A stretch of 64,000 bases of DNA from Adineta ricciae (Eukaryota; Rotifera; Eurotatoria; Adinetida; Adinetidae): NCBI GenBank assembly GCA_905250025.1, contig CAJNOJ010000128.1:62001-126000 (forward strand), written 5' to 3'. Under the pieces are notes generated by a model. It ran no database searches. It had not been told where the DNA came from and saw nothing but the letters and a program-made list of their open reading frames with translations. Below, piece after piece: positions 30,910-46,820 of this stretch (positions are counted from its first letter, which is position 1; each line of letters starts with the position of its first letter). A program made the translations under genes and the position numbers.

Positions 30910-39030
<8,121 letters not shown>

Positions 39031-40251: not shown

Positions 40252-43200
40252 ATGTCACCGACAAGAATGGTCTCATCGTCGAAAGAAGATCTTATACAAC
40301 GATGGCAGCGTCAATTGATTGGTCGCACGCATATAAATTTTCAAGAATTTCTGCATCTACTCCGACAACATGTATGAATAACCTCTCAAATATCTATTTT
40401 TAATATTCGAGTAATTCGATCTGTTCTCTCTTTATTTTCTTTTTCTCAGCTATTGTTAGAAACGCTCTTTTGCATATTCGATCGTGATTCAAACGGGTCA
40501 CTCTCTGAAGCAGAATGGATCGGATCTGTATATAAAGTGGCCGAGTATGTGTACATAATATTCTCTTCTTTAAATGTGTCTTAACAAACATTTGATCATC
40601 ATTTGTGTATTGACAGGATATCCAATCGCACGAAAGATGTTCGAACACTTGAACCATTCATACGTGCGTATAGACATGTTTCACAAGGCTCGGATTCACT
40701 TACTTTAAATGCATTTTATATTTTATTCGAGGATCAATCTGTAAGATCGAATCTTCTATCTAAAATAGTCATCTTCGCTTGTCTCTTCTCTTAGTTTTGT
40801 CGAGATTTTGCTTTCTTATTTATGAATGAGTTACATCCATTGAACATCATGGAATTAACAGATTTACTTCGATCAGTTTCAAAGTATGTATTCATTGATA
40901 CAGGATGGTGACGTTCTTTTCTTTTGATGTTAGTCTTAAATCTGATACAAAATGGCTTTCGTGGCTTGCGTATCAGTTTCATACAGCTGTTGGCAAACGT
41001 CGTAGTCTAACATCCAATGGCATCCCATTTGATGATAGTATGGATCTCGAAACATTTAAAAATAGTTTTTACTTCAAAGTGGTACGTACTAATTCTTTGA
41101 ATACGATCAAAACTCTATGGCTTTTCCTTTTTAGCCGGAATTAGCTGATTGTCTATTTAATTACCTCGACACAGATAGAACAGGACGGTTAACACTAGAT
41201 AAGTTTATTCGCAAGTTAGAATTTTTGATAGAAGCAACTGACAATGAAAAAGTCGAATTTTTGTTCAAAATTTTCGATCGTGATGGTTTGTAAATTTGTC
41301 TTGACGGAAAAACGGAATGTTCCTCTCGTACGAAATTCTAGGCGATGGAACCATTGATTTTGATGAAATGAAATTATTACTTCGTTGCTTTTTGGAAGAA
41401 TCCCCATCGCTGGATATGGAAGAAACATTAGCGGAATTAACAGCCACTTTATTTCAAGAAACAGACATCGATCAATCAGGAGACATTAGTTTCGAAGAAC
41501 TAGCGGATGCATTAAGACGAAACGAACATCTTTTCAAAGTTCTTTCCTTGAGGTAATATTTGTTTTGTTCATAGATGTTCGAATTAATTAATCATTTTCT
41601 AAACTCTTTCAGTACGAGCAGTTGGATTCGACCAAAACCTGTTTCATTATGTAAATGTCATAAACGCTCATCAACTGTTCGCGCTTGGATACGAAACAAT
41701 ATTGGTTTGATATTCTTCTGGTCGTTATATTCATTTATTTGCACTTGTATTTGTATTGATGTGTTACATGTCTACGTTGGTCAACAACGTGCCCATTTCT
41801 TTATTGTCATAGCACGATTAAATGGTAAAACAAAACAAAACGATTTCCTCTTCTTCTCATTACTGTGTCTTTCAGGTGGAATGTTGAATTTCAATTGCGC
41901 TCTAATGCTCGTACTGATGCTTCGAAAGCATATTACCTGGCTGAGATCCAAAGGTGGAAGCGTCCTGCTTCCCTTGGATAATCATATCGATATTCATAAA
42001 ACAATTGGAATCATCATTATGATCGAAACGGCTTTGCATACAATCGCCCATTTCGCTTATCTATGTTTGTATAATCTGTTTTGCTTTCTTGTTTACAAAA
42101 GATTTCTATTTGCTAGATTATGTCTTTTATATTTGTTCCTTACAAGAAGATAACGGTTTTCTATGTAATGAGAAAACAAATCTGAATCAATCGATGAGTG
42201 ATCAAGCACTCATCCGCAAACTCTATCGATTCGATGTTTCAACAGACCGATGTGTTCCATTTGGATACCTCGGATGTGGAGGAAATTGGAATCAATTCTA
42301 TAATGAAAAATTATGCACTATCCGTTGCAGTAAATAGCGAGTTAATGCTTCCAACAGTTCATTCATTTTGATTCGGAATATTTGTAGAAGCATATCGTGA
42401 TTCGTACCATCGATTTACCGATGCAATATTTACAGCAAAATTAGGATTGGGATACATTACAGGTGTACTGGAATTTTTATTAGGTGCGTTGATTTACATC
42501 ATGTGTTTACCATTCGTACGAAAAAGTGGCCATTTTCAAGTAAAATCAATCACAAACCTGTTGATTAGGTTTAGATTTTAGTTTCTGTTTAGTTATTCTA
42601 CTGGTGTCATATGTTGACACTACCATGGTTAATTATCATGCTTGTTCATGCACCGCGTTTCTGGAAATGGGTATTGCTACCTGGAGTATTGTATATTATT
42701 GAGAAAATTTTACGTTATCGTAAATCACGTTCGAATAAACACGGAGAAACGTTCATAATGGAAGCAATTCTTTTGCCATCTCAGGTGATTTCCTCTGAAT
42801 TGATTAACACAATGCGAAAAGAAAATATCTACTGAGTCCTTTTTTTCTAGGTGATTCATTTAGTGATTAATAAACCGCGCAAATTTACATACAAACCTGG
42901 AGATTATATCTATATCAACATCCCAGCTGTGGCTAGCTTCGAATGGCATCCATTCAGCATAAGCAGTGCTCCGGAACATAAAGGTATGAGACCAGAATTG
43001 AGATATGATGATTATATCTGCTTTCAGATAGTCTCTGGCTTCATGTTCGTGCCAGTGGTCATTGGACCCGACGCGTTTATGAATTGTTTCGTTTGAAACT
43101 AAAACAAGAACATGGAGGTTTCATCAATGATTCCAATGATCTTCGTCTTCGCTTATCAATGCGTTCACGCATGTCAAAGAGTTACATCGATGAACTACGC

Positions 43201-45280
43201 GGTCTACATCAACAAGAAAACACTCTCCTGTACGATCCTGATCAATGTTCGCAAGCGAAAGCTATTTCGGTGTCATTTCCATTGGCTAAACAGCAGACGA
43301 AATCAATCTGTTCGTCATGTCAATCAACATTAAGCTTAAAAGACATTCATAGAAGTTCGATGAATAGAAGCATTCTGATGAATCCGAATGATCTGGAGAA
43401 TTTGACTGTCGAAGAGATCGAGCAACTTGCTTATGAAAAAGATGATCAAATAACAAACGACTTGCAAAGAAAGTTCAGGACAACAGCAAAAATGAACAAT
43501 CAAAATCGTCTGACAGTACCAGCAGTCAGCGATTATTGCATTCGAATGCCTACGCTTTCGTCAGCCGAAGATGAACCTGCAACAATATCCTATCATGAAA
43601 CACGTATTTCCGACGCATTAGGTTATTTACGCATGTATAAAAACCAAAATAGAATACAATTCAATTCTCTTCAATTCAATGATCGTGAAGACTTACAAGT
43701 AAAAGAAGCAATTAGACCAAAAAAAGATTTCTAAAATGAACTGTAGGTGTTAATCGATGGACCATACGGTGCACCGTCTCAACACATATTCGAAGCTGAA
43801 CATGCAGTTTTGATTGCTGCTGGCATCGGCATAACACCGTTTGCATCGATCTTGCAGAGCATTATGTGTCGATTCCGAAATCGTCGACACAAATGTCCCA
43901 GTTGTGACTTCATTTGGGACAATCCTGAAAGCGAAGAGTTGCGCGTAAAAAAAGTAACAGAACACCTGACGAGTTAATTTCATGTTTTGCATTTGATTTC
44001 ATTGAAACTTTTCAGGTGGATTTTATTTGGGTGACACGTGAACAACGTTCGCTTGAATGGTTTATTAGTTTATTAGCTCAGATGGAAATCGAACAGCAAC
44101 GATTAAGACAAAACTCGGATAAAGGTCCATTACTCGAAGTTCATTTATATGTCACCAGTGCACAATCACCGGCTGACTTAAAAGCGCTCAATGTATATCT
44201 GTCATTAGATTTAATTGGTAGGGAGAATTCTGCAAATTGTGATGCTATTGATGGACTTCGGCAAAGAACAAAACATGGGCGACCCAACTGGGAACAAGTA
44301 AATGTCTATTATAATGTTATTCGAACTTATTAGTATTATCGTTGACGTCAGAGTAGTTTTTTCCTTTAATCAATAGAAAATACCGACATGACTGGAATCG
44401 GGAAAAGAACTCGTATGAATAAATAATAGGTTAACGAAAAAAAAAGAATGAGAAAGAAAAGTAGAATATCGTCACGCTCGACTTTGATTAACGTGACCTG
44501 CGCTGTTCGTGAGAGAAAATGGGAAAATGTTTACAAGTCTAATCTGTTTTCCTCTAAAACGTTCCGATGCGGGTTTACTTAATTAAATCTACTTGATGCT
44601 TCGATTAATGAAGTCATTTGTTCATTATTGAGTTTTTCATCAAATAGGATTATAAGAAAATGTAAAGCTTTTCTGCATATAACTTCCTGCGAAAGTCCTG
44701 TTTTAATGCGTAGCGATGCACAGCGACGTTTTTCTGTTACCTCGAAAAGTACATAAAAGAATTCATGCTAATGCTAAACACATCTGTTGCTTTTATTTCT
44801 GCCTGTGATATTACTGTTTCTGAAGCGATTATCCTTATATAATTGACACTCGATGATCAGTACTCGAAATGCATATATTCTTATCTCATTTCCTTACCAG
44901 TCTTAACTTTTTCTTTTTCTCATGTTATTAACAGTTTCTAATCGAGTCTCATCTTCAATTCACTCCTACGCCCTTTTTCATCCGGAGACTTGTTGGGCTA
45001 CATACGTAAAAGCTAATGATAGGTGCGAAGGGTATGCTGACCTCGCCTATCTTAAACTTTGGGTTACTACTAATTGCGCGAGAATAAAAGAAAAGGGCTT
45101 TTAGTTGCACTTCTATTTAACCATTGTTTTTATTTATATCCATTGTAGGTATTCACAGAATTACTATGTCAAAAGAAAGGAAAAATCTCCGTTTTTTATT
45201 GTGGTCCACCATCCTTATCAGCTGAACTAACAACGAAATGTCGTCAATACGGGTTTGCCTTTAAAAAAGAACTATTTTAA
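40252..45280 (+). CDS. NOX5-like Ca2+-dependent NADPH oxidase with an inserted Kunitz domain
   Basis: First exon 40252-40371 (MSPTRMVSSSKEDL). The N-terminal half has four EF-hand loops: DRDSNGSLSEAE, DTDRTGRLTLDK (position 12 is Lys, probably degenerate), DRDGDGTIDFDE and DIDQSGDISFEE. A six-helix ferric-reductase core follows, with the haem His pairs in IHKTIG/LHTIAH (TM3) and WCHML/LVHAP (TM5). Then come the FAD-binding site (FEWHPFSISSAPEH) and NADPH sites (VLIDGPYG, AGIGITPFASILQS, FYCGPPSLS), ending YGFAFKKELF. The order matches NOX5. It moves electrons from cytosolic NADPH to outside O2, making superoxide. Two oddities: a Kunitz domain in the outer TM3-TM4 loop (exon 42117-42329) and an insertion of about 200 residues between the FAD and NADPH parts (43090-43698). 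The last intron (about 44300-45148) is long. The start codon is the first ATG of an exon whose 5' side is unclear. Confidence 0.93.
42117..42329 (+). other. Kunitz/BPTI-domain exon inside the NOX5-like gene
   Basis: This exon is 213 nt, flanked by a donor at 42065 and acceptor ending 42116 on the left, and by a donor at 42330 and acceptor ending 42387 on the right. Both introns are phase 1. It encodes six cysteines with the Kunitz order. Spacing from Cys3 on is canonical: 7 residues (VPFGYLG), 12 residues (GGNWNQFYNEKL), 3 residues (TIR). F-GYLGCGGN-NQF is the Kunitz core signature. Cys1-Cys2 has 9 intervening residues (8 in BPTI) and Cys2-Cys3 has 28 (15 in BPTI), an insertion of 13. The residue after Cys2, the P1 position in inhibitors, is Asn, so classical trypsin inhibition is not predicted. 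Confidence 0.88.
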
Positions 45281-46358: not shown

Positions 46359-46820
46359 ATGTTGGTCTTCTCAACTTATCTTATCGTTTTACTAAATATC
46401 TTGGGTCTTGTTTTAACTACTCCTGTTAAACAAATTTCTTTAAATGACAAATCTGAGGACGTTACATTAGAACAAGCGTTCCGCAAAGCAGAAAAAACCC
46501 TCCATCGTTATTATTATTTAATGAATTCCGATATCGACCATCTTGTCCACGGTATGTTACATATCCTAATGAATCATCCAACGTCGTTTCCATTCATTCC
46601 GTATCGCGCTATGGACATAGCGTTTAAAAATGTGGCACAGAAATTAGGCGAAGAAGAAGTGAATACGTTAACCAAACCGCTTCTTTTGGCTCTTGAAGAA
46701 CATCATCAAACGAAGTCGAAACAGCCGATGACGTTTAAGTTAAGCGACGAAACCAAGGAGAAAATCGAAGATGCTCTGGACAAGTTTTTAGATGAAGGTG
46801 AATTTGACGCACATTTGTGA
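46359..46820 (+). CDS. Small secreted protein of unknown family
   Basis: One uninterrupted frame of 153 residues from the chosen ATG. An upstream in-frame ATG at 46290 exists, but starting at 46359 gives a clean signal peptide (MLVFSTYLIVLLNILGLVLT, cut near TTP), so I prefer it. The mature part is about 130 residues, acidic and predicted helical (VTLEQAFRKAEKTLHRYY, HLVHGMLHILMNHP, EKIEDALDKFLDEGEF), with no cysteine and no motif I recognise. It has its own TATA box. The poly(A) hexamer AATAAA begins on the last base of the stop codon. It is probably a real, strongly expressed small gene, but I cannot assign a function. Confidence 0.65.
   Translation: MLVFSTYLIVLLNILGLVLTTPVKQISLNDKSEDVTLEQAFRKAEKTLHRYYYLMNSDIDHLVHGMLHILMNHPTSFPFIPYRAMDIAFKNVAQKLGEEEVNTLTKPLLLALEEHHQTKSKQPMTFKLSDETKEKIEDALDKFLDEGEFDAHL

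Follow-up and report, generated by a model that had tools for sequence, protein, structure and literature searches.

The window, by which we mean the whole 64,000-nucleotide stretch of DNA analyzed here, carries a gene for a NOX5-like NADPH oxidase (40252..45280, plus strand) in which one exon places a Kunitz domain in loop C, the loop between transmembrane helices TM3 and TM4. We read the product as a NOX5-type EF-hand oxidase with a shuffled loop-C Kunitz domain that serves as a cap or docking site and is probably not a standard inhibitor, and we give this reading a probability of about 0.6. We are highly certain of this architecture as a feature of the gene; our certainty about function is moderate to low.

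The gene model was built by hand as a single open frame from ATG to TAA. It comprises 17 exons encoding 1,106 amino acids, and all of its introns (16/16) are bounded by GT-AG. Pfam placed EF-hands, Kunitz_BPTI, FAD_binding_8, and NAD_binding_6 in the one protein. Exons 2 to 7 (40450..41552, plus strand) encode the N-terminal EF-hand region (calcium control), which was recognized both by Pfam, with five EF-hand models above their cutoffs and one (EF-hand_9) under, and by a motif search that returned three EF loops, at residues 204, 240, and 284. Exon 9 (41876..42064, plus strand) ends in phase 1 and encodes TM2 and TM3, as placed by hydropathy and the human NOX5 alignment, with heme-ligand-type histidines at 424 and 438. 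By the same two methods, exon 11 (42388..42539, plus strand) begins with a linker of about 20 residues after the last Kunitz cysteine and continues into TM4. The human NOX5 alignment assigned TM5 and TM6 to exon 12 (42593..42784, plus strand), with heme-ligand-type histidines 574 and 587 on TM5; TM6, which fell under the hydropathy threshold, was placed only by the alignment. The two histidine pairs, on TM3 and TM5, have NOX heme-ligand spacing (101/115 and 209/222 in NOX2).

The FAD/NADPH-binding region (42851..45280, plus strand) matched PF08022 at 83.8 bits (cutoff, 22) and PF08030 at 93.6 bits (cutoff, 22.2). In the whole protein PF01794 (Ferric_reduct) scored 26.9 bits, slightly under its cutoff of 28, which may be expected because the insert splits the profile. 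The protein has the features of a NOX5-type enzyme, namely NOX-type FAD/NADPH domains, two histidine pairs in a six-helix heme domain, and N-terminal EF-hands. Membership of the DUOX group was rejected because the oxidase protein has no peroxidase domain; none was found among the 11 Pfam families matching it at E values up to 0.01. As a separate observation, exon 14 (43028-43698) is a long, fast-evolving stretch with indels that separates the FAD and NADPH parts.

The Kunitz domain is encoded by exon 10 (42117..42329, plus strand), a 213-nucleotide exon with GT-AG borders and phase 1-1, whose whole codons correspond to protein residues 448 to 517. Its translation is YVFYICSLQEDNGFLCNEKTNLNQSMSDQALIRKLYRFDVSTDRCVPFGYLGCGGNWNQFYNEKLCTIRC, plus one codon split across each junction, and it is stop-free at 42119-42328 in the frame dictated by exon 9. 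Phase-1 introns lie on the 5' side (42065..42116, plus strand) and, in the gene model, on the 3' side (42330..42387, plus strand). The 5' intron is identical at 49 of 52 bases to its counterpart in a gene copy on contig C173; with that in a copy on contig C210, 22 of the 45 bases that align are identical, and there are 11 gap columns. Both copies are described below. Against a cutoff of 21 bits, PF00014 (Kunitz_BPTI) scored 40.6 bits on exon 10 alone (E value, 3e-10), 33.1 bits at residues 453-518 within the 1,106-residue protein, and 37.1 bits at exon 10 in a six-frame scan of the whole genome. The exon contains six cysteines with spacers 9-28-7-12-3; spacers 3 to 5 are canonical (7-12-3), and spacers 1 and 2 depart from the canonical 8-15. 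By sequence, the nearest solved structures were bikunin (1bik, top) and boophilin. An AlphaFold model of exon 10 alone, made from one sequence, had low confidence (mean pLDDT, 47.5). A preliminary description of the window had called this 213-nucleotide phase 1-1 exon in frame with its neighbors and had noted six cysteines with canonical spacing over the last four. The gene model and splice sites agree with the first point, and with the coordinates given, and the spacers agree with the second, and the Kunitz identity it gave the exon passed the Pfam profile check.

We found that exon 10 sits between heme-binding TM3 and TM4. Among solved structures, human NOX5 (6sz5 and 8u7y) was the closest to the membrane part by sequence. 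The human protein aligned up to query residue 112 and resumed at 193, with 12 human residues versus 80 in the query between the aligned blocks; thus, loop C has gained about 68 residues. The alignment with 5o0t likewise flanked the insert on both sides. Human NOX5 has the same transmembrane core and dehydrogenase domain but a short loop C (12 residues) with no inserted domain. The NOX5 pieces from C. stagnale, 5o0t and 5o0x (named putative ferric reductase in the PDB), are also among the best solved relatives by sequence, but no domain is inserted in their loop C. Human NOX5 shares the EF-hands as well. EF-hands are likewise stated for NOX5 in an excerpt of PMC9568551.

By analogy with the NOX2 and DUOX1 structures (excerpts of PMC9568551 and PMC7794343), loop C would be extracellular, and each of the three NOX copies has sequons in its insert, which is compatible with such a location. 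The earlier proposal that a NOX5-like oxidase bears a Kunitz domain in its extracellular loop between TM3 and TM4 is supported by Pfam, the gene model, and the human NOX5 alignment. The first Kunitz cysteine (453) lies 11 residues past His442, and the residues between them form a hydrophobic continuation of TM3 with no evident flexible linker. His442 presumably aligns with NOX2 His119 of the putative oxygen-reduction center. That role of His119 in NOX2 is described in the excerpt of PMC9568551, which also assigns NOX2 loop C to a glycosylated cap above the outer heme and proposes that loops above the outer heme modulate NOX2 activity. DUOX1 offers a likeness: it too is a NOX under EF-hand control, and an additional extracellular domain, of the peroxidase-homology type, is docked on its loop C and stapled there through a disulfide (excerpt of PMC7794343). 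DUOX differs, however, in having a large N-terminal peroxidase-homology domain and an extra helix, M0, versus the small domain within loop C here.

Genome profile counts gave 37 rows for PF00014 and 10 rows at nine loci for PF08030. The two profiles occurred together at three loci, on C128 (the contig of the window), C173, and C210, and all 17 exons (17/17) with their GT-AG splice sites and phases are preserved in the three copies. The C173 copy is near identical to that of the window, with 1,562 of 1,705 aligned intron bases equal and a protein identity of 97.6%. The C210 copy is diverged, with 734 of 1,519 aligned intron bases equal, a protein identity of 67.8%, and a dS of about 2.1, which is near saturation. 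Searching the genome with the C210 Kunitz exon returned no near-identical partner of that copy (one row at 100% and the next at 42%). From these identities we infer that C173 is an allele-like and C210 a homeologue-like copy, a pattern that would suit a bdelloid rotifer. A count of the repeat TGTGGG, which is telomeric in bdelloids, gave no such signal, with 38 matches versus 44 for the reversed control. It is simplest to suppose that insertion of the Kunitz exon preceded the split between the window and C210 copies.

These copies bear on whether exon 10 could be an annotation artifact, either an exon of a nested gene or a product of assembly error. We found no evidence in favor of this, and it is extremely improbable given that three separate contigs agree in exon order, phases, and splice sites and given the extent to which the window and C210 introns have diverged. 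A separate nested transcript, which the preliminary description had named as a possible objection, is unlikely for the same reason of shared exon order and phases.

We then compared the Kunitz exons of the three copies for signs of selection. Between the window and C173, exon 10 has six synonymous changes and one replacement change (dN/dS, 0.038; Fisher P = 0.0003). Between the window and C210, its dN/dS is 0.378 (P = 0.0045; gene mean, 0.105), and its amino acid identity of 41% is the lowest among the 17 exons, followed by exon 4 (45%) and exon 14 (49%). The two exons differ in length by 18 nucleotides, in frame, and both keep the six core cysteines and a GCGGNWN block. On the C210 Kunitz exon PF00014 scored 53.9 bits (cutoff, 21), and the spacers are 9-34-7-12-3 with a seventh cysteine in the first spacer. 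This seventh cysteine of the C210 exon (C210:69667-69897; L033 5668-5898) could pair outside the domain. Judged by these substitution patterns, exon 10 is coding and constrained, much less so than the catalytic exons, and its long-term constraint is moderate. A pseudogene was rejected, since each of the three copies has open frames and GT-AG sites and since dN/dS is low between the two near copies; this low value also argues against a useless exon.

Because exon 10 is phase 1-1, skipping it would preserve the frame, and alternative splicing would be possible. The exon might then be a dispensable, alternatively spliced cassette that most transcripts skip to give an ordinary NOX5. Its symmetric borders would suit such a cassette, as would its standing as the least conserved exon by amino acid identity between the window and C210. 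However, the splice sites are intact in all three copies, the six core cysteines are kept, the length change is in frame, and dN/dS between the near copies is low, and we consider this explanation unlikely.

Serine protease inhibition is the best-known activity of Kunitz domains, and exon 10 is a good match to the Kunitz_BPTI profile. If translated, it could provide a membrane-tethered protease inhibitor that shields the oxidase or its surroundings from proteolysis. Several features of the primary loop speak against this. At the P1 place, directly behind the second cysteine, the window has Asn and C210 has His; the place is not conserved. The residue after P1 is Glu or Ser in the window and C210 exons, where Kunitz inhibitors usually have a small Ala or Gly. 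The C2-C3 stretch, which holds the primary binding loop, has 28 residues in the window and 34 in C210 versus the canonical 15 (+13 and +19), and it contains N-glycosylation sequons in each of the three copies. Thus, we did not find, by sequence, the short conserved primary loop with a suitable P1 that is the mark of a standard inhibitor. Compared to Kunitz domains of the BPTI, bikunin, and APP type, the domain belongs to the same family and has the same last spacers (7-12-3), but its loop is expanded and sequon bearing and its P1 is nonbasic and not conserved.

The altered P1 together with the longer, sequon-bearing C2-C3 stretch makes a standard mechanism unlikely, and on this basis the domain is probably not a standard-mechanism serine protease inhibitor. 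The argument against trypsin inhibition that had been drawn earlier from the P1 Asn is strengthened by the length of the C2-C3 stretch, its sequons, and the difference between Asn and His. A loop that would be expected to stay fixed in an inhibitor varies between the copies, and the Kunitz protein BLI-5 has been reported to enhance, rather than inhibit, protease activity in vitro (excerpt of PMC11304992). We rate the tethered inhibitor as improbable, slightly more so than the skipped cassette.

The preliminary description had offered, as possible functions, the tethering of a protease, an ion channel, or matrix, or redox control through the disulfides. We consider it most likely that the Kunitz domain is a glycosylated extracellular module, locked by its disulfides, that would act as a cap or docking site close to where oxygen is reduced. 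A disulfide joins the first cysteine of the Kunitz fold to the last, so the domain would close the loop and form a compact cap over the outer heme. The domain would rest on the outer end of TM3, with about 20 residues leading from its last cysteine to TM4. The rigid glycosylated surface could anchor the Ca2+-activated source of superoxide at a partner in the matrix or on the cell surface; alternatively, the cap could shape oxygen entry and superoxide exit. In Caenorhabditis elegans, molting requires two secreted Kunitz proteins, BLI-5 and MLT-11, and cross-linking of cuticle collagen is the role proposed for the dual oxidase BLI-3 (excerpt of PMC11304992). An oxidase acting on the cuticle and Kunitz proteins acting in molting make it plausible that a Kunitz module and a NOX work on the same matrix.

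A more specific version, which we put forward only tentatively, is that a matrix-type Kunitz domain acts as a lid or receptor over the oxygen-reducing site, so that a partner or glycan decides where and when superoxide is released. If true, this would be a second independent animal route, beside the DUOX peroxidase domain, to an extracellular module on NOX loop C. Less probable than any of the alternatives above except the artifact is a redox- or ligand-driven gate, in which the disulfides or a bound partner shift the loop and switch superoxide output. Such a gate would draw on the short distance from Cys453 to His442, the presumed counterpart of the NOX2 oxygen-reduction histidine, and on the modulation proposed for the loops over the NOX2 outer heme (excerpt of PMC9568551). 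However, we saw no sign of switching in the sequence, and the extra cysteine occurs only in the C210 copy. Kunitz disulfides are also normally very stable.

We also examined the other NOX loci of the genome. The Kunitz exon is present at three of the nine NOX loci, and in the genome profile scan the contigs of the other six had no PF00014 row. The loop-C intron, read by eye, is also phase 1 in four Kunitz-free paralogues (L034, L035, L037, and L039), where it lies within 4 to 5 codons of the Kunitz-flanking place in a stretch that cannot be firmly aligned. In L036 and L038, which are NOX2-like in their long later loop, the tblastn match crosses loop C in a single frame and shows no Kunitz domain there. 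When the nine NOX loci were compared in a tree of their NADPH-binding part, in which the L035 row is very long, the three Kunitz-bearing genes joined in one branch (98/96). PF01794 lists seven more rows, on C305, C362, C18, and C605. These were not counted as NOX; the four of the seven that we viewed (L023, L025, L028, and L032) had a weak match or no match to the window protein. No PF00014 row lies on these contigs.

A class 1-1 exon dropped into a phase-1 intron keeps the frame. Exon 10 is a symmetric phase 1-1 exon encoding one domain, and this matches a class 1-1 shuffled module. Exon shuffling is thus supported as the origin of the Kunitz exon, both by its own phases and by the phase-1 loop-C introns of the four paralogues, as the preliminary description had suggested.

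We searched for a possible donor among the Kunitz rows of the genome. The six-cysteine pattern fits 22 of the 37 rows, and the canonical spacers 8-15-7-12-3 occur in 18; the other 15 rows, including the partial C210 row, are partial or lack some cysteines and stand outside this comparison. Noncanonical spacers were found in C9 (9-15-7-12-3), the window and C173 (9-28-7-12-3), and C22:549167-549352 (9-25-7-12-3). Among the comparable rows, only the C22 domain has both oddities of the NOX exons, a 9-residue first spacer and an expanded, sequon-bearing second spacer. Its exon borders, read by eye, are phase 1-1. Seven Kunitz rows stand at C22:547617-549352, this domain being the last, and 3' of these on the same strand lie Antistasin and PLAC stretches, both over their cutoffs, and two Ig-like stretches, one over and one under. 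The combination of Kunitz, Antistasin, Ig, and PLAC is the makeup of papilin, and the order and strand of the C22 exons suggest that they constitute one papilin-like gene. Its last Kunitz domain shares the odd spacers and phase 1-1 with exon 10, but Antistasin, Ig, and PLAC follow it and there is no oxidase. Work on the evolution of GASP/WFIKKN connects papilin with the shuffling of Kunitz-encoding exons (excerpt of PMC3427181).

Similarity scores and trees were used to assess this candidate. With the C210 exon as the query against the whole genome, the best non-NOX match was C22:549167-549352 at 36.1 bits, followed by C96 at 35.5. In pairwise comparisons, the window exon scored 36.5 bits with the C22 domain versus 34.3 with C9, and the C210 exon scored 37.0 bits with the C22 domain, less than with C96 (40.0) and C16 (39.2). 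Kunitz trees were built from 31 domains, with 6 partial rows dropped and the C210 row replaced by the full exon. The papilin-type C22 domain was not sister to the NOX exons in these trees, and their union was not rejected (P = 0.30). A second tree put the NOX exons in a weakly supported group with domains of C22, C26, C34, and C287. We regard the papilin-like C22 domain as a candidate donor by sequence resemblance. Under this model, the phase-1 intron of loop C would have received a Kunitz exon of phase 1-1, perhaps one of the papilin-like last-Kunitz type, before the old duplication that parted the window and C210 copies. Elsewhere in the genome, Kunitz domains without the second and fourth cysteines (one disulfide) occur at C190:184794-184949, C10:175564-175716, C26:359242-359406, C34:61941-62105, and C287:25213-25377.

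NOX enzymes are deeply conserved as a family, and to our knowledge their known extra domains lie at the N terminus or in the cytosol. Our searches of the open-licence literature, judged by titles and the openings of abstracts, found no report of a NOX joined to a Kunitz domain and no paper combining Kunitz with bdelloid, and the portion of a comparative study including Adineta vaga that we could consult has no mention of a Kunitz-bearing NOX (PMC7730656). The architecture is real and conserved and apparently unreported, although automatic annotations of bdelloid proteomes may already contain it without comment. A folded domain in an outer loop would show that the NOX core tolerates, and here keeps under selection, a module near the place of superoxide release. 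It would offer a natural experiment on outer-loop control of oxygen access and superoxide exit and on the targeting of superoxide to matrix. It would also present class 1-1 shuffling into a multipass membrane enzyme in a single genome that offers the matching intron phase, paralogues free of the module, and a candidate donor.

Two further features were seen in the neighborhood of the oxidase gene. Just 3' of it, at 46359-46820, is a 153-amino-acid open frame with a signal peptide-like start, intronless as read. The terminal part of another gene lies at 38681-39028; its coding stretches are rich in Gly, Ala, and His, a makeup resembling that of transcription factors.
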